From a virus, in IMG/VR virus record IMGVR_UViG_3300048835_000287, positions 1-42,103 of that record: DNA of 42,103 nt; one strand, written 5' to 3'. The notes beneath the pieces were generated by a model. It searched no databases. It had not been told where the DNA came from and saw only the letters and a list, made by a program, of their open reading frames with translations. Of this stretch, positions 9,702-37,807 are shown piece after piece (the stretch's first letter is position 1; each line of letters begins with the position of its first letter). The position numbers and the translations under genes are program-made.

Positions 9702-12196
9702 TGGCTGCCTCCGAAGGCGTTGGAAAGGTCGGGCAGGCGGATGCCGTCATTGGATCCGCGCGTGGGCAGGAAAGGCTGGGTGCCGTAGTCTCGCTCAAGC
9801 TGTTTCAGCTTGCGGCGCATGGCGGCCTCGGCCTGCGGGTCGAGGAACGCCTGCAGCTCGTCGGCCACCAGGCGCGAATAGGCGGCGCGCACCGGCCAGG
9901 CCGAGGAGAAAAACGGGGTGTTCTGCCGCACGGTGTTGGCGATGTCGCGCCCCACGGCCGTCGGCTTGCCGTTGATCGCGCTGGTCACGTTCGACGCAAC
10001 AGGGCCGATGACGTCGCCGATCGCGCCGGCCACGGGCCCGGCCAGCGTCTCGCCGATGCCCCCGCCCACGCGGCTCGTCTCGGACTGGAAGAAATCTCCG
10101 AAGATGCCGAGCCCGCCGCCCTGGAAGGTCGCGGCCAGCCAAAACTTGCCGTCCGTCATCGGCCGCGGATCGTTGCCCTTGGCGAGCTCTTTCAGCTGGA
10201 TCGCAAGCGCACCCAGGACCAGAAGCATGGCGGACATCTGCGCGGCATACTTCGCCTTCGCGACCGGGGTGGGCAGGTTCATAAACCGCCGGTACTGGCC
10301 CAGCATGAGCGACATGGTGAAGCTCTTGTAGGCGGTCGAGGAGCGCAGGAGCTCGCCAGAGAAGCTGCCAGCCGGGGCGGTGCCCTGCAGGAGCGCGCGG
10401 CCCTCGAGGCTGGCCGTAGGTACGGCAAACTCGAGCTGCTCCTGCATGGCCATCTGCAGGCGCATGGCCAGGCCCTCGGCCTCGACGCGGGGCAGGGCAC
10501 GCTGCGTTTCCAGCCAATAGAACGGCGATATGAAATTCGCCCCGCCGGGCGCTTGGAAGTGGGTCGAGGGATCGCGCAGGAGATCCCAGTCGGCCGCTGT
10601 GATGCCGCGCGCTTGGAACAGCGAGCGCAGGGGCGCGTCGATCTGCGCGAAGGGCCGGCCAGCGTTGTCCGCCATGAAGCCCGCGAACTCCATCTGGAAC
10701 GCGATCTTGCGCATGTCGGTGATGAACGAGAGGCCGGTCGCCCGAAGGGTGAAGCCGGCCATCCGCTCGGGGATCCCGGTGCCGAACATTTGGCCGAAGA
10801 ACCGGGCCGAGCCGCCGCCGGCATCCGCCAGGGTCTGCGCAACATAGCCCATGCGCGCGGCCGTCTCGCGGGTGGCATGGCTCGCGGTCAGCTTCACCGA
10901 TCGGGCGAGCACGTTGCTGGCCGACATGCCCATGGTCTGCGCCGCCATGGTGATGGTGGCCACGTCCGTGACCGATGACAGCACGGCGCTGCCCAGCTGG
11001 ATCGACGTCAGAACCGCCCGGGTGCCGCCGAAGAACCGGGCCACGGCCACGCGCTCGGCGCGGTTGGCGGTGCCGTCCTGGTGCGCCAGCATCGCCTTGG
11101 CGACGGCCGCCTGCGTGTTGACACGGGCCTCGAGCTTGGGATCGCTCAGCGCGGCCGCGCGTTTCCGGCCAACCTGCTCGGCATAGGTCAGCCCGGCGCG
11201 CGGGTTTGGCCCCAGGACGCGCATGAGGGCCGCATCGCGGGCCATGCCGTGCAGGCCGTTCATCATGGCCGAGAAGGGGTCGGCCGTGCCGAACTGGGCG
11301 TTATAGTCCAGCCAGTCGGATCCGCTCTTGAAGTGCATGACGCGGTGCTCGCCGCGCTGGTTGTAGAGCGCCTTGCCGCCAAAGCTCAGGGACGGGTCGC
11401 GATCATCCCAGCCGCCCGAAACGATGCCGTCATAGACATCTTTCAGGAACCGCTGCGTCGCACTGCGCGGCGGTACCTGGCCGGGGGCCGCGCTGAACGG
11501 CTTGCCGGTAGAGAGATCAGGGATCCTATCCCAGGCGAGGCGCGTCTCGATCGCCTGCGCCCAGGCGTCGAAGCCGGCGCGGCGCAGCTGGCCCGCGTCA
11601 TGGGCATGGGGCACGCCATAGTCGGCCAAGTTGCCGATGTCGGCGCCCAGGCTGTTCAGGGTGCGGCGCATCCGCTGTTGCTGGGCCCGCACGGCCTTGG
11701 CTAGCGTGGCGGCCGAGGCGCTGCCCGTCGCCTCGCCGTGCAGCTCGCGCACCAGGTCGCGCAGGAGCGCCTTGTTGCGGCTCGAGCCGGTGACGTTCAA
11801 GCCAACCTGCTCGAGCACCTGGCCCAGCCCGGCGTTGATCGACGCCTCGTAAGCCTCGGTCAGCGACTGGACGCTTTCGCCCTTGAAGCCGCTGCCTTCC
11901 GAGTAGGCCATGAGGTTGCGGATAGCGAGCGCAGGATCTGGCGAGGTTTCGACCAGGTTCTGGATCCGGCGCATCGCCTGCAGCTGGTTCACCACCTTGT
12001 GGTAGCGTGACCGTTTCGCCTGGGCGGTTGCCTGTTTCAGATCCTTGGCGGCCAGAGCGGCCGCCTGGCCACGCGGCATGATCGTCTGGTACCGCGCAAA
12101 GAGCTGGTCGAAGGCTTTCTTCGCAGCGATGCCGCGGTTGCGGTCGATCTCTCCGAAGTCCACCCCACGCGCCAGGCAGTCGGCCATGCTTGTCAT
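9698..12196 (-). CDS. large internal (ejected) virion protein
   Basis: An 832-residue protein, third in a row of large proteins between the nozzle and the fibre, matching the position of the T7 internal core proteins gp14-gp16. The N-terminal region is helical and Gln/Arg-rich. The C-terminal half has hydrophobic, glycine-rich segments (AQMSAMLLVLGALAIQL and a GGLGIFGDFF stretch) that could insert into the host membrane during DNA ejection. The ATG at 12196 overlaps the upstream stop (ATGA) and is chosen over a start 10 codons earlier. No enzymatic motif was seen. Confidence 0.65.
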   Translation of the reverse strand: MTSMADCLARGVDFGEIDRNRGIAAKKAFDQLFARYQTIMPRGQAAALAAKDLKQATAQAKRSRYHKVVNQLQAMRRIQNLVETSPDPALAIRNLMAYSEGSGFKGESVQSLTEAYEASINAGLGQVLEQVGLNVTGSSRNKALLRDLVRELHGEATGSASAATLAKAVRAQQQRMRRTLNSLGADIGNLADYGVPHAHDAGQLRRAGFDAWAQAIETRLAWDRIPDLSTGKPFSAAPGQVPPRSATQRFLKDVYDGIVSGGWDDRDPSLSFGGKALYNQRGEHRVMHFKSGSDWLDYNAQFGTADPFSAMMNGLHGMARDAALMRVLGPNPRAGLTYAEQVGRKRAAALSDPKLEARVNTQAAVAKAMLAHQDGTANRAERVAVARFFGGTRAVLTSIQLGSAVLSSVTDVATITMAAQTMGMSASNVLARSVKLTASHATRETAARMGYVAQTLADAGGGSARFFGQMFGTGIPERMAGFTLRATGLSFITDMRKIAFQMEFAGFMADNAGRPFAQIDAPLRSLFQARGITAADWDLLRDPSTHFQAPGGANFISPFYWLETQRALPRVEAEGLAMRLQMAMQEQLEFAVPTASLEGRALLQGTAPAGSFSGELLRSSTAYKSFTMSLMLGQYRRFMNLPTPVAKAKYAAQMSAMLLVLGALAIQLKELAKGNDPRPMTDGKFWLAATFQGGGLGIFGDFFQSETSRVGGGIGETLAGPVAGAIGDVIGPVASNVTSAINGKPTAVGRDIANTVRQNTPFFSSAWPVRAAYSRLVADELQAFLDPQAEAAMRRKLKQLERDYGTQPFLPTRGSNDGIRLPDLSNAFGGSQ

Positions 12197-15100
12197 GCCG
12201 CCACCCCCGTCGCTTCGATCGCGCACGCCTGCACGAAGGCGTCAAATTGTGCGTCCTGGTCGAGATCGTCCAGGAGCTCGGCCGCGGTGCGGGTGGTGCC
12301 GTCGGGAAGCTCGACCTCGAGATCTCCGAACGCCTGGCGCAGATCCGCGGTATTGACTTCGCCAGGCGCGGCCTCCATGTTAGAAGTGTCCCCACGAGAA
12401 GGAGGGACAATCTCCATGACATTTGACAGCTTTGTATCTTGGGACTTCCGCCCTGCGGTGCTGTTCCGGAAACCTTCCGGCGCGTTCGTGGCTCTGGCCA
12501 TGCTCGAGCCGGGCTCCGATTGGGTATCGGTCGACGCCCTCGATGTCGTCCATACCGCTTCGGTGTTCGGATCCGAGGATGCGTTTCGGGGGGCTTTCGA
12601 GCGCAGCTGGGGTGCGATCGACATTCCGTCGGCCGAGAAGGCGACGGAACTGAGCACGTCCCGGTCGGCCGCCGCGTAAAGCGCGAGCTCGCCTTCAAAG
12701 AGCGCGATCGCCTGCGGATCCTCGGGATCGAGGCCGCGACGCTGCGTATAGGACGCGGTCCCTTTCTTCTTCGCGTCGAACATGCCCCGGGTCCAGATCT
12801 GGACCTCGCTCAGCATCCCGTCGGCGTGCCGCACGATCAGCTTGCGATCGACATATCCCTCGCGCTTTCGCGTCCAGCCCTCATCGACCAGGTCGAACTC
12901 TTCGGCCAGCTGCGCGACCAGCTGCTCGGCCTCCTCGAGATCCGTCACGATGAAGCCGCCGCGCGAAACGTCGGTCAGCTGGCGCGGGCTGGCATAGCTC
13001 TTGCGGGCGAGCTTTTCCTCGGTTGTAGCCCGCTCTTTCAGCCCGGGATCCTTGAACGTGATGCCGAGCTCGCGGCCGATGCGATTGCCGGCCTCGCTCA
13101 GCTTGGCCTGGGCATCGGCCGCCCGGGTGTAGAGCGTGTCGAGATCATCGAAGGGCTGGGCCATCGCCAGGCGCAGAACGAAGGTGACCGGATCCGCCTC
13201 GGCCAGGATCTCGGCCGCCGCGGGCGCTGCCGTCGCGCGGATCTCGGCCGCGATCTCCTGGTCGGCCGCCTCAGCCTCGAGCGATTGCGCGCCTTCCTCG
13301 TAACCCTCGTCCACCAGGTCGGCGCGCAGCTCGGGTGCCGCGCCCCGCGGCCGGCCGATGTCGTCGGGCAGATCGCCGAAGATCTTCGGGTCGATCGCGC
13401 GCAGCACGTCGGCCGGGCCCGGCCCGTCGAACATGCCGCCGGTGGCGCCGGCCTTGCGTGCATCTTCCGCGTAGCGTGCCAGGAAGCCCGCGACCTCGTC
13501 GGCCGGGGCCGCCTTGCCATCGCGCCAGAACTTGCGCACCAGGGCGGCGGTGAGCGGTGCCACGGGGCCCTCGAGGAGATCGACCTCCTCGAGGAGCTCG
13601 GACACGGCCCGGGCGATGCTCAGCCCTTCGCGGCTCGACAGCTCGCGGGCGGCGCCGATCAGGCGCATCGCGTCCAGGACATAGGGCGAGACGTCCATTT
13701 CAGGGCGCACCAGGCCGGCCTCGATGTCGGCCCGCAACGCGGCCCAGCTGGGCGCGGCGCGATCGAGCGCCTCCATGAGCGATTTAAGGGGGCCCGCGTC
13801 CGTCTCGGTGAAGCGCGCGAGGATCTCGGGATCCGGCCAGGCGCGGGCAAAAAGCGCCTCGCGCAGCTGCCGCTGGCCCTGGTTGTTCAGCACGCCGCCC
13901 TCGCCGAACATCGAATTGCGCGCCGATCGAGGAAGGCCGGAAAGGGCAGCCTTCACGAACTCGCCATTCGACGCCGCGGTGAGCGGCTGGGTCGGATCGA
14001 GGCGCATGAGGACCGGCGATGTCATCGCCCGGCTCGAGGCGCGGGCGACTTCGGTGGGCGTCATCTGCGCAACGCCGCTGTCTTGGGCTTCGACCACGAA
14101 CCGGCGCAGCTCGTCATCTGAGAGGGCGCTGCGTCGGCGGGCCACAAGAACGGGACGCTCGACGCCCTCGGGGATCGCGAAGCCGGCCGCCTCGATCTGG
14201 CTGCGGTAGGCGCCGCTGCGATCGGGGAACTGGTCATAGGCCCGCGCGATCGCCGCCACGCGGCCGTTGCCGCTTTCGATCATGCCGTCGGGCCCGACGA
14301 TCGGCGCGCCGCGATCGGCCGTCGGGGCCGGCATGAGGCGCATGGGATCGAGCTGGGCGGCCGTGTCGGAAATCCAGGCATCGGATGCCTGGCGGCTACG
14401 ATCGCGCGGCTGGAAGTCACCGCTCGCCGCGCGCAGCTGGGAAATGTCGAGCACCTCGTATTCGACGTCGATCCGGAAATCCTCGCCGGCCGTCACCTGG
14501 CCCTCGCCGGTGTAGCCCCGGGTCGTCGGCGAATAGGGGGCAGCGTCGCCAGAGATCGCGACGCCGTCGTGCTTCGGCACGGCGCCGCCCTCGTACTGGC
14601 GCTGCAGCGAGACGGCGTAACCGATGCGCCGCTCGAGGTGCGGGATCCCCGGGCGCTCGTAATATTTCGACACGAACGCGGCCGCCTCGCGCGCGTCCTT
14701 CGCCTGGCTGATCCTGGACCAGGCGCCGGCCTCGCTGGTTTTCAGCTCGTGATCGACAAAGGCGATCTGCGTGTCGAGATCGCTCGGGCTTTTGCCACGC
14801 TTCTGCGCGAACGCCTCGAGCGCCCGGCGGCGATCGTTCCACTGCGCGATGCCGTAGGCCGCGCCGCCGTCTCCCACCGCGTCGGTGCGCAGACTGGGCC
14901 CGCTCTCCACCATGAAGTTACCGACCAGGCCAGAGGCGATATGCGGCTCGTAGCCCAGCTCGAGGAACTTTCCGAACACATAGCCCGCCCGGTTCGTGCG
15001 GGGCGAGGCGTTGCCGGCCGGGGTGTAATCGAACTTGATCGGGCCGGCGGGCGACTCGACCTCGTTCGGCGGGGGCGCGATCACCTCTTGCACGGTCGGA

Positions 15101-15879
15101 TCGCCGCGCAGCTGCGCCTCGGCCGTGTCGACCGCAACCTCTGCGTCGATCTCGTCCATGTCGGCCGGCTTGGCGTCCAGGACGCCGCGGCGCCGGGCGG
15201 CGATCATGCCGTAGCCTTTCAGGATGCCCACCACGCCGGTGGCAAAGGTACCGCCCAGCAAGGCCCCCATGCCGATGCGGCCGAGGACGTCGGGCTTGGG
15301 CAGATCGAGATCCTCGGCCACCTGGAATTCGCGCGGCAGCACGGCCGCCTCGCCGATCGCGCCAAGAGCGGCCTCGCTCACGATCGTCCGGAGTGCGCCG
15401 CTCGAAACCCCGAAGGGCAGGAGCATCAAGCTGGTCTGGTCCGTCATCGCCCGCGCGGATCCGCCCAGGAACTCGGCAAAGCCGCCCCCCGGCTGGTCGA
15501 GGATCGACTGCGCCTCCTCGAGCTCGGCCTTGCGCTCGCCGTCGATCGCCAGGTCGAACTGCTCGCGCGAGAGGGGCAGGGTGCCATACTTGGTCGGGTT
15601 GGTCGGTACCTCGCGAGAAACCTCGTCAAGGACCATGTCCTCAAAATCAATCCAATTGTTCTCGTAATCCCACCGGCGGTTCTGGATGCGCATCTTCGCT
15701 TCCGAGCCGAGCATCCCGTACATTTCGGTGGCGAGCCCGCGGCGCTTGTCCTGGGTATAATTCCAGGCGTCGGTGCGGATCGTCTCGGCTTCCCAGGCCG
15801 CACCCATGACATCCCAGCTGCTCACGTCCATGTCGGGCGGGGCGGGCAGGTTTTCCTCGGGCAGGGGCAGATTCGTCAC
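12193..15879 (-). CDS. multidomain internal virion protein: lysozyme + ParB/DdrB-like + RelA/SpoT-like
   Basis: A 1228-residue protein with a GTG start overlapping the upstream stop. Residues about 295-430 form a phage tail-lysozyme domain (Glu325 in NFMVESG; AAYGIAQWN). About 470-690 resemble the DdrB-like ParB domain of polyvalent proteins (GPDGMIESGNGRVAAIARAY; RRSALSDDELRRFV). About 905-1035 resemble a RelA/SpoT synthetase fold (LARKSYASPRQLTDVSRG, KREGYV, LSEVQIWT). The position fits a T7 gp16-like ejected protein that opens the peptidoglycan. The other domains may act in the new host, which is inference. Residues about 1068-1155 are Ser/Thr/Asn-rich and lie antisense to a plus-strand gene. 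Confidence 0.75.
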   Translation of the reverse strand: MTNLPLPEENLPAPPDMDVSSWDVMGAAWEAETIRTDAWNYTQDKRRGLATEMYGMLGSEAKMRIQNRRWDYENNWIDFEDMVLDEVSREVPTNPTKYGTLPLSREQFDLAIDGERKAELEEAQSILDQPGGGFAEFLGGSARAMTDQTSLMLLPFGVSSGALRTIVSEAALGAIGEAAVLPREFQVAEDLDLPKPDVLGRIGMGALLGGTFATGVVGILKGYGMIAARRRGVLDAKPADMDEIDAEVAVDTAEAQLRGDPTVQEVIAPPPNEVESPAGPIKFDYTPAGNASPRTNRAGYVFGKFLELGYEPHIASGLVGNFMVESGPSLRTDAVGDGGAAYGIAQWNDRRRALEAFAQKRGKSPSDLDTQIAFVDHELKTSEAGAWSRISQAKDAREAAAFVSKYYERPGIPHLERRIGYAVSLQRQYEGGAVPKHDGVAISGDAAPYSPTTRGYTGEGQVTAGEDFRIDVEYEVLDISQLRAASGDFQPRDRSRQASDAWISDTAAQLDPMRLMPAPTADRGAPIVGPDGMIESGNGRVAAIARAYDQFPDRSGAYRSQIEAAGFAIPEGVERPVLVARRRSALSDDELRRFVVEAQDSGVAQMTPTEVARASSRAMTSPVLMRLDPTQPLTAASNGEFVKAALSGLPRSARNSMFGEGGVLNNQGQRQLREALFARAWPDPEILARFTETDAGPLKSLMEALDRAAPSWAALRADIEAGLVRPEMDVSPYVLDAMRLIGAARELSSREGLSIARAVSELLEEVDLLEGPVAPLTAALVRKFWRDGKAAPADEVAGFLARYAEDARKAGATGGMFDGPGPADVLRAIDPKIFGDLPDDIGRPRGAAPELRADLVDEGYEEGAQSLEAEAADQEIAAEIRATAAPAAAEILAEADPVTFVLRLAMAQPFDDLDTLYTRAADAQAKLSEAGNRIGRELGITFKDPGLKERATTEEKLARKSYASPRQLTDVSRGGFIVTDLEEAEQLVAQLAEEFDLVDEGWTRKREGYVDRKLIVRHADGMLSEVQIWTRGMFDAKKKGTASYTQRRGLDPEDPQAIALFEGELALYAAADRDVLSSVAFSADGMSIAPQLRSKAPRNASSDPNTEAVWTTSRASTDTQSEPGSSMARATNAPEGFRNSTAGRKSQDTKLSNVMEIVPPSRGDTSNMEAAPGEVNTADLRQAFGDLEVELPDGTTRTAAELLDDLDQDAQFDAFVQACAIEATGVAA
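12353..12381 (+). promoter_or_regulatory. candidate sigma70-type promoter for the nested plus-strand gene
   Basis: TTGACT (12353-12358), a 17-base spacer and CATGTT (12376-12381) fit a -35/-10 pair reading rightward. It lies 34 bases before the ATG of the antisense-nested gene. The -35 is 5 of 6; the -10 keeps only the key A and final T. It sits inside the coding sequence of the opposite-strand virion gene, so chance is possible. Confidence 0.35.
12416..12679 (+). CDS. 87-residue protein encoded antisense inside the virion gene
   Basis: An ATG with a strong Shine-Dalgarno (AGAAGGAGGG ending 10 bases upstream) opens an 87-codon frame with ordinary protein composition: WDFRPAVLFRKPSGAFVALAM, then DALDVVHTASVFGSEDAFRGAF. 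By hand count G+C is about 62 percent at first and 54 percent at second codon positions, as in a real gene. The antisense virion frame would show the reverse order, and its translation here is Ser/Thr/Asn-rich and unlike the rest of that protein. The family is not recognised. It could be expressed from the prophage while the virion genes are silent. Confidence 0.6.
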   Translation: MTFDSFVSWDFRPAVLFRKPSGAFVALAMLEPGSDWVSVDALDVVHTASVFGSEDAFRGAFERSWGAIDIPSAEKATELSTSRSAAA

Positions 15880-37156: not shown

Positions 37157-37807
37157 ATGGATGAGAAGTGGTTCAAGTTAAAGAAAAAACTTGCCGGAGT
37201 CACAAACGCGGAAATCGCGAAAAGGCTCGGCCGTGACCATACCGTGATCTCAAAACTTGTGTCTGGCTCACAAAAACTCACATTAGAATGGGCGCATGTG
37301 TTCGCAGAAGTGCTGGACGTGCCCATCCCAGAAGTCCTAGAGAAGTTTGGCGCGATCGACCCGGTCACGGCGCAAGAGCTTATGCCTGGGTTTCGTGAAA
37401 GTGACATAGTTCCGTGCGTGCTTGGCCCAGAGCTAGACGCCAAGATTGCTGATATTGCTAAGGTTTTCGGGGGCGACCTTCGAGGTATCGAGGTTTGGCG
37501 TGTCAAATCTCGAGCGATGGCCCTGGCTGGGTTCATCGAAGGAGACCTAGTCGTCGTTGACACTTTCGTGGGAGAGCGGCTGATCCGCGGTGACATTGTG
37601 CTCGCAAGGGTGTCAGACCGAAAGCTGAGAGGTCAGTTTACTGTCATGAGGAGATATGAGCCTCCCGTGCTAGTCGCAGCGTGCGCTGACCCAAACGAAG
37701 CGGCCGTCTACGTTATGGATGGCGTCGAGGTTTCGGTTCAGGGGAAGATCGTCGCCTCATGGCGCAGCTTCACACCAGTAGATGTGCTAGCAAAGCGGCG
37801 TCAGTAG
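37157..37807 (+). CDS. CI-like repressor with an inactive S24 domain
   Basis: A 216-residue protein. The N-terminal HTH (about 15-37; NAEIAKRLGRDHTVISKLVSG) binds DNA. The C-terminal half follows the LexA/CI S24 layout (WRVKSRAM, then EGDLVVVD and RGDIVLARV). The usual Gly-x-Ser-Met catalytic site aligns to Ser-Arg-Ala-Met, putting Ala at residue 120. The catalytic Lys position reads Met164 in FTVMRRYE. Self-cleavage seems impossible, so induction may need another trigger. No ribosome site precedes the ATG, which lies 7 bases after TACTTA, so a leaderless message is possible. Confidence 0.8.
   Translation: MDEKWFKLKKKLAGVTNAEIAKRLGRDHTVISKLVSGSQKLTLEWAHVFAEVLDVPIPEVLEKFGAIDPVTAQELMPGFRESDIVPCVLGPELDAKIADIAKVFGGDLRGIEVWRVKSRAMALAGFIEGDLVVVDTFVGERLIRGDIVLARVSDRKLRGQFTVMRRYEPPVLVAACADPNEAAVYVMDGVEVSVQGKIVASWRSFTPVDVLAKRRQ

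Follow-up and report, generated by a model that had tools for sequence, protein, structure and literature searches.

A conserved antisense gene nested in a polyvalent phage virion gene as a candidate immunity gene for the adjacent RelA/SpoT-like domain

The virus record IMGVR_UViG_3300048835_000287 of IMG/VR, analyzed here over a stretch of 42,103 nucleotides (hereafter "the window"), contains a minus-strand virion gene of 1228 codons, inside which the opposite strand carries an open reading frame (ORF) for an 87-residue protein, termed here P0001. Judged from the sequence comparisons described below, this nested ORF is a real, conserved protein gene with promoter-like and ribosome-binding sites. 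We consider it highly probable that P0001 confers immunity to a virion-borne (p)ppApp-synthetase-like toxin, i.e. that a toxin-immunity cassette occupies both strands of one virion gene. The toxicity of the synthetase-like domain, its enzymatic product, its ejection into the host, and its binding and neutralization by P0001 are what we infer by analogy with characterized systems.

The nested ORF lies wholly within the virion gene, opposite virion residues 1067-1155 (Table 1). The first-pass annotation, made from the letters of the window alone, had described a complete antisense gene with a strong Shine-Dalgarno (SD) sequence, a promoter-like pair, and a hand-counted G+C content of 62 and 54 percent at the first and second codon positions. 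These observations hold up, and the case for the gene has become stronger than it was at first: the computed values for codon positions 1/2/3 are 61/53/75%, the ORF is conserved in divergent phages, and the SD is kept in all ten carriers that we found, the window included. Antisense frames are often open in the window genome, and many antisense ORFs exceed 80 amino acids. In the ten virion genes (46.5 kb in total) there are 16 antisense ORFs of at least 65 amino acids with an SD and a start codon, ten of which are the nested ORF, one per gene, and six of which are not. The TTGACT-17-CATGTT pair is missed by a generic promoter scan for the strict sigma-70 consensus; our promoter claim is based instead on the spacing, which is 17 bp in the window and in the relatives L048, L049, L050, L051, L052 and L016 (phages and other records are designated here by L numbers), and on the comparison with local background, which the promoter-like hexamers 5' of the nested start exceed (combined p ~6e-9). 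Upstream of the nested start in L018 (L018:4600-4640) there is also a 15-bp palindrome, GTGATACAGTATCAC, a possible operator for autoregulation of the antisense gene.

Homologous nested ORFs were found in seven further phages, and diverged versions in two more. All ten carriers have the ORF at the same site and in the same antisense phase, each with an SD and each inside an uninterrupted virion/polyvalent ORF. Over 10 kb, the sister phage L002 and the window share 94.6% identity (L003 is a fragment identical to L002); the virion ORF of L002 also has 1228 codons, and its nested ORF is full length, with ~88% amino acid identity to P0001. The nested ORFs of L048-L052, found by a search with the adjacent virion domain, and of L071, found by a search with the nested family, are 37-48% identical to P0001 at the amino acid level (48% for L071, by tblastn). 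Residues W9, R12, P13, A14, L16, W36, D43 and V44 are invariant in the alignment of the nested family (A5). The giant polyvalent ORFs of L016 and L018 contain at the same site diverged nested ORFs of 70 and 69 codons, respectively, which match the nested family in hhalign with a probability of 73 and E of 3e-5. The AlphaFold2 model of P0001 has a predicted local distance difference test (pLDDT) score of 87 with the seven-member family alignment and of 53 from the single sequence.

Comparison of the window with L002 reveals that 25 of the 36 substitutions in the nested segment fall at the wobble position common to both frames. At the amino acid level, the nested frame shows conservative changes (D/E, F/Y, S/T, V/A, I/L) and the virion frame of the same segment radical ones (K/Y, E/L, A/K, R/L, I/S), with mean BLOSUM scores of +1.0 versus -1.3. 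The nested frame is the more conservative one in 16 of 21 sequence pairs, or in 18 of 21 if the sequences are aligned in the virion frame, whereas in the adjacent RelA/SpoT segment, used as a control, the virion frame is better in 21/21 pairs, whichever frame is used for the alignment. The earlier suggestion that this segment was shaped by the other strand is thereby borne out, and the Ser/Thr/Asn-rich virion translation that had been noticed across the nested stretch recurs in L016 and L018. The converse picture, with the virion residues conserved and the plus frame broken, was not observed: all carriers that we found have an open, conserved plus frame. The virion frame is also maintained through the nested gene. 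It is open in every carrier; stops in this phase would arise from nested Tyr, His or Gln codons after certain third bases, and the nested proteins contain 10 such residues versus 63 expected from the window composition; for a random 87-residue protein with this composition, the probability of an open virion frame is 0.23.

The part of the virion protein adjoining the nested gene resembles RelA/SpoT synthetases. A profile of this domain from six relatives matches Tas1, a toxin of the type VI secretion system (T6SS), at E 1e-24 and RelA at 5e-5, and a profile restricted to the polyvalent members matches Tas1 at E 2e-15; one relative, L022, matches PF04607 at E 4e-9. In the domain alignments, the residues of the D, YxD and ExQ motifs do not vary (D76, Y115, D117, E131, Q133). 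The stop codon of the nested ORF overlaps the final helix region of the synthetase domain, and thus the two coding regions are arranged tail to tail. In L022 itself, an alphaproteobacterial metagenome-assembled genome (MAG), a stand-alone RelA/SpoT protein is followed by a 59-codon ORF (L022:4007-4902), possibly another toxin-immunity pair.

The nested ORF is present in 10/10 untruncated polyvalent genes found with the RelA/SpoT domain (window included) and in none of the three relatives without it (Fisher p 0.0035; leaving out L002 gives 0.0045). L017, whose record ends before the nested site, was excluded from this count, and RelA/SpoT matches in cellular genomes, which resemble exported Vibrionaceae-type synthetases, were left out of the linkage claim; another scan, with the profile of the polyvalent domain, revealed no exception. 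Our findings do not support the exclusion, conversion or antisense-control role that had been proposed in the first-pass annotation, which missed the adjacent Tas1-like domain: the ORF instead tracks this domain, and the linkage points to an immunity (antitoxin) gene.

The virion protein is a polyvalent phage protein, combining PF18763, PF18013 and the RelA/SpoT-like domain in one chain; Pfam and PHROG scans found in it no MuF domain, the N-terminal domain by which MuF polymorphic toxins are recognized. The RelA/SpoT domain occupies a hypervariable slot, which contains other domains in L007 and L008 and is nearly deleted in L009, and all three of these relatives keep the C-terminal tail (shortened in L009). 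The slot of L007 (L007:4697-6004) encodes a P-loop-like GPPAAGKS motif resembling zeta toxin/kinases, with no nested antisense partner seen, and that of L008/L010 (5089-6000) a different domain of no recognized family, so that effector domains seem to be exchanged at this slot. In L007, L008 and L009 we found no compact antisense ORF that bears an SD and resembles an immunity gene, and no general rule of antisense partners for all toxin domains is claimed.

We propose that the minus strand encodes a virion protein with a Tas1/Apk-like RelA/SpoT synthetase domain in its variable region, which is probably ejected into the host and probably acts as a (p)ppApp or related pyrophosphate-transfer toxin, and that a separate housekeeping-type promoter on the plus strand would drive the gene of a small immunity protein. 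Lysogens would make this protein constitutively while the virion genes are off, and it would guard them against incoming related particles and leaky toxin expression; during lytic growth it could neutralize newly made toxin. Since the C-terminal tail is conserved in relatives without the synthetase domain, translation of the virion frame probably continues antisense across the immunity gene as far as that tail. This requirement would explain the orientation: the virion ORF must run on, so a same-strand position directly after the toxin domain was not simply available, and since the toxin domain is internal, a same-strand downstream immunity gene would sit beyond further coding sequence. The antisense placement and a separate promoter would keep the immunity gene beside the toxin domain and free its expression from late transcription. 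It is also likely, though we hold this with somewhat less confidence than the immunity function itself, that the cassette is doubly coding, with the immunity gene antisense inside the toxin-bearing gene and both frames kept open by selection, that it has moved as an in-frame unit between different polyvalent virion proteins, and that the virion residues encoded antisense to the immunity gene form the linker to the remainder of the virion protein. The suggestion of the first-pass annotation that the gene could be expressed while virion genes are silent is plausible in view of its own promoter, the evidence for lysogeny being indirect for the window. An integrase match is absent from the window record; the L048 and L016 records carry integrases (over the Pfam cut-off), and a helix-turn-helix protein encoded at 37157-37807 (+) of the window, in the orientation opposite to the late genes, is a candidate lysogeny regulator. 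The integrases of the two relatives and this regulator would fit a lysogenic state.

Several observations weigh against an immunity function. With the window domain as the sole query, the match to PF04607 has an E of 0.013 and falls short of the cut-off, and an HD_4 domain of the (p)ppApp-hydrolase type was not found in the window record. RelA/SpoT synthetases that are exported but lack an immunity gene are known (PMC12691689), and therefore the domain alone is no proof of toxicity. The 10/10 association corresponds to about eight or nine independent lineages, L002 being close to the window. Fold searches with P0001 give only weak SH3/PWWP-like resemblances (Z about 3), which we take as background, with Tis1 not among the matches, and hhalign detected no match between P0001 and five small ORFs found at the IapK position of MuF phages (these are not confirmed IapK proteins). 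Other searches with P0001 were equally negative: there was no match in Pfam, PHROGs, NCBIfam, PADLOC or PDB, including no PDB sequence match to the Tis1 entry, no tblastn match in phage and plasmid collections, and no relative in a scan of genome contigs; a search with A5 of 385 genomes from the class of an alphaproteobacterial MAG gave no match, which is uninformative without a positive control. Because there is no detectable homology to the IapK-position ORFs and no fold match, we describe P0001 as probably working like the IapK and Tis1 immunity proteins, and not as a member of their families.

The same lack of homology to known immunity proteins, together with a promoter of its own that would allow expression in a lysogen, could be taken to mean that the nested gene serves superinfection exclusion, lysogenic conversion or regulation and has come to lie in the virion gene by chance. 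We regard this as unlikely, since the ORF always directly follows the RelA/SpoT domain, in different backbones including those of L016 and L018, and relatives that lack the domain lack the ORF too, which argues against a moron of other function. Less likely still is that the transcript rather than the protein matters, as an antisense RNA limiting expression of the virion toxin gene: the plus-strand promoter does oppose the late operon, and its RNA would be complementary to the 3' part of the toxin gene, but selection acts on the codons, and the SD and start are kept in every copy, so an antisense-RNA role can only be an added effect.

The ORF could also be a spurious by-product of G+C-rich coding in the antisense phase with a shared wobble position, given how often antisense frames are open in this genome. 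This we find hardly credible in view of the conservation of amino acids, SD and promoter across divergent phages, the confident fold predicted with the family alignment, the reversal in sign of the substitution pattern between the nested segment and the control region, and the mere six other SD-bearing antisense ORFs in the 46.5 kb surveyed.

Table 1. Features of the virion gene and of the gene nested in it (positions in the window)
Feature	Position	Strand	Source	Remark
Nested antisense ORF P0001, candidate immunity protein	12416..12679	+		87 amino acids; stop codon counted in span
-35-like hexamer TTGACT for nested gene	12353..12358	+		17 bp ahead of -10 hexamer
-10-like hexamer CATGTT for nested gene	12376..12381	+		
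Shine-Dalgarno AAGGAGG for nested gene	12399..12405	+		10 nt ahead of ATG
Virion (polyvalent) protein gene	12193..15879	-		1228 codons; reads through nested gene
Phage_lysozyme2 domain, PF18013, of virion protein	14605..14991	-	Pfam	
ddrB-like ParB domain, PF18763, of virion protein	14134..14481	-	Pfam	polyvalent-protein hallmark
RelA/SpoT synthetase-like domain, candidate toxin domain	12646..13188	-		virion residues ~898-1078; closest solved relative Tas1
C-terminal tail of virion protein	12196..12354	-		virion residues 1176-1228; also in L007, L008; shortened in L009

The neighboring gene of 832-842 codons has homologs in podoviruses such as phiV10 and SPN1S.

If the proposed function is correct, the nested immunity gene provides one concrete answer to how a phage or lysogen survives despite toxin-like domains in polyvalent virion proteins. 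Gene callers that exclude long overlaps overlook the opposite strand of a toxin ORF, and we offer as a search rule the antisense strand just past toxin domains in large virion proteins. As a conserved antisense protein gene of a prokaryotic virus, P0001 is also unusually well supported and has a predicted partner, and the debated function of proteins from antisense genes becomes testable here through toxin neutralization.

Virion-borne synthetase-immunity pairs are known from MuF phages, in which virion proteins carry the RelA/SpoT-type toxin Apk2 and the gene of the immunity protein IapK follows directly, accompanied by the hydrolase Aph1; IapK binds the Apk2 toxin and blocks its acceptor site (PMC12226406). 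That system and ours have in common a RelA/SpoT-type synthetase in a phage virion protein and a small linked immunity gene. They differ in that iapK lies downstream on the same strand, whereas the gene described here is antisense within a ddrB-ParB/lysozyme polyvalent ORF that runs on; moreover, we found no hydrolase gene in the window record and no sequence match of P0001 to the IapK-position ORFs. The Apk2-like layout of a synthetase-bearing virion gene, a small ORF (likely the immunity gene) and a phosphohydrolase was found also in Bordetella phage PHB04 (L012:1876-4141) and Pasteurella phage Pmp13 (L047:1400-3652), where the genes are annotated as hypothetical or generic. (pp)pApp-producing toxSAS are neutralized at the acceptor site by Tis1-like proteins (PMC11782079). 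Tas1 (Apk1), the closest solved relative of our synthetase domain, likewise has a small immunity partner, Tis1, but is delivered by the T6SS, in contrast to the probable virion delivery here, and the immunity gene described here is antisense-nested, with no homology detected between P0001 and Tis1.

In the open-access literature searched, we found no description of a toxin ORF that contains its own immunity gene in antisense orientation. The polyvalent proteins described by Iyer et al. (2017, PMC5512222) likewise combine ddrB-ParB, lysozyme and RelA/SpoT domains in one large virion protein, but a text search of that article shows no antisense or nested immunity genes. Pore-forming colicins have immunity genes on the opposite strand with their own promoter (PMC9517006), as we propose for P0001, but here the immunity gene is wholly inside the reading frame of the toxin protein, which reads through. 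Finally, prokaryotic antisense overlapping genes (PMC7457138) share with P0001 the embedding of a protein gene antisense in another gene; those are mostly supported by expression, whereas P0001 is supported by amino acid conservation across divergent phages and has an obvious partner.
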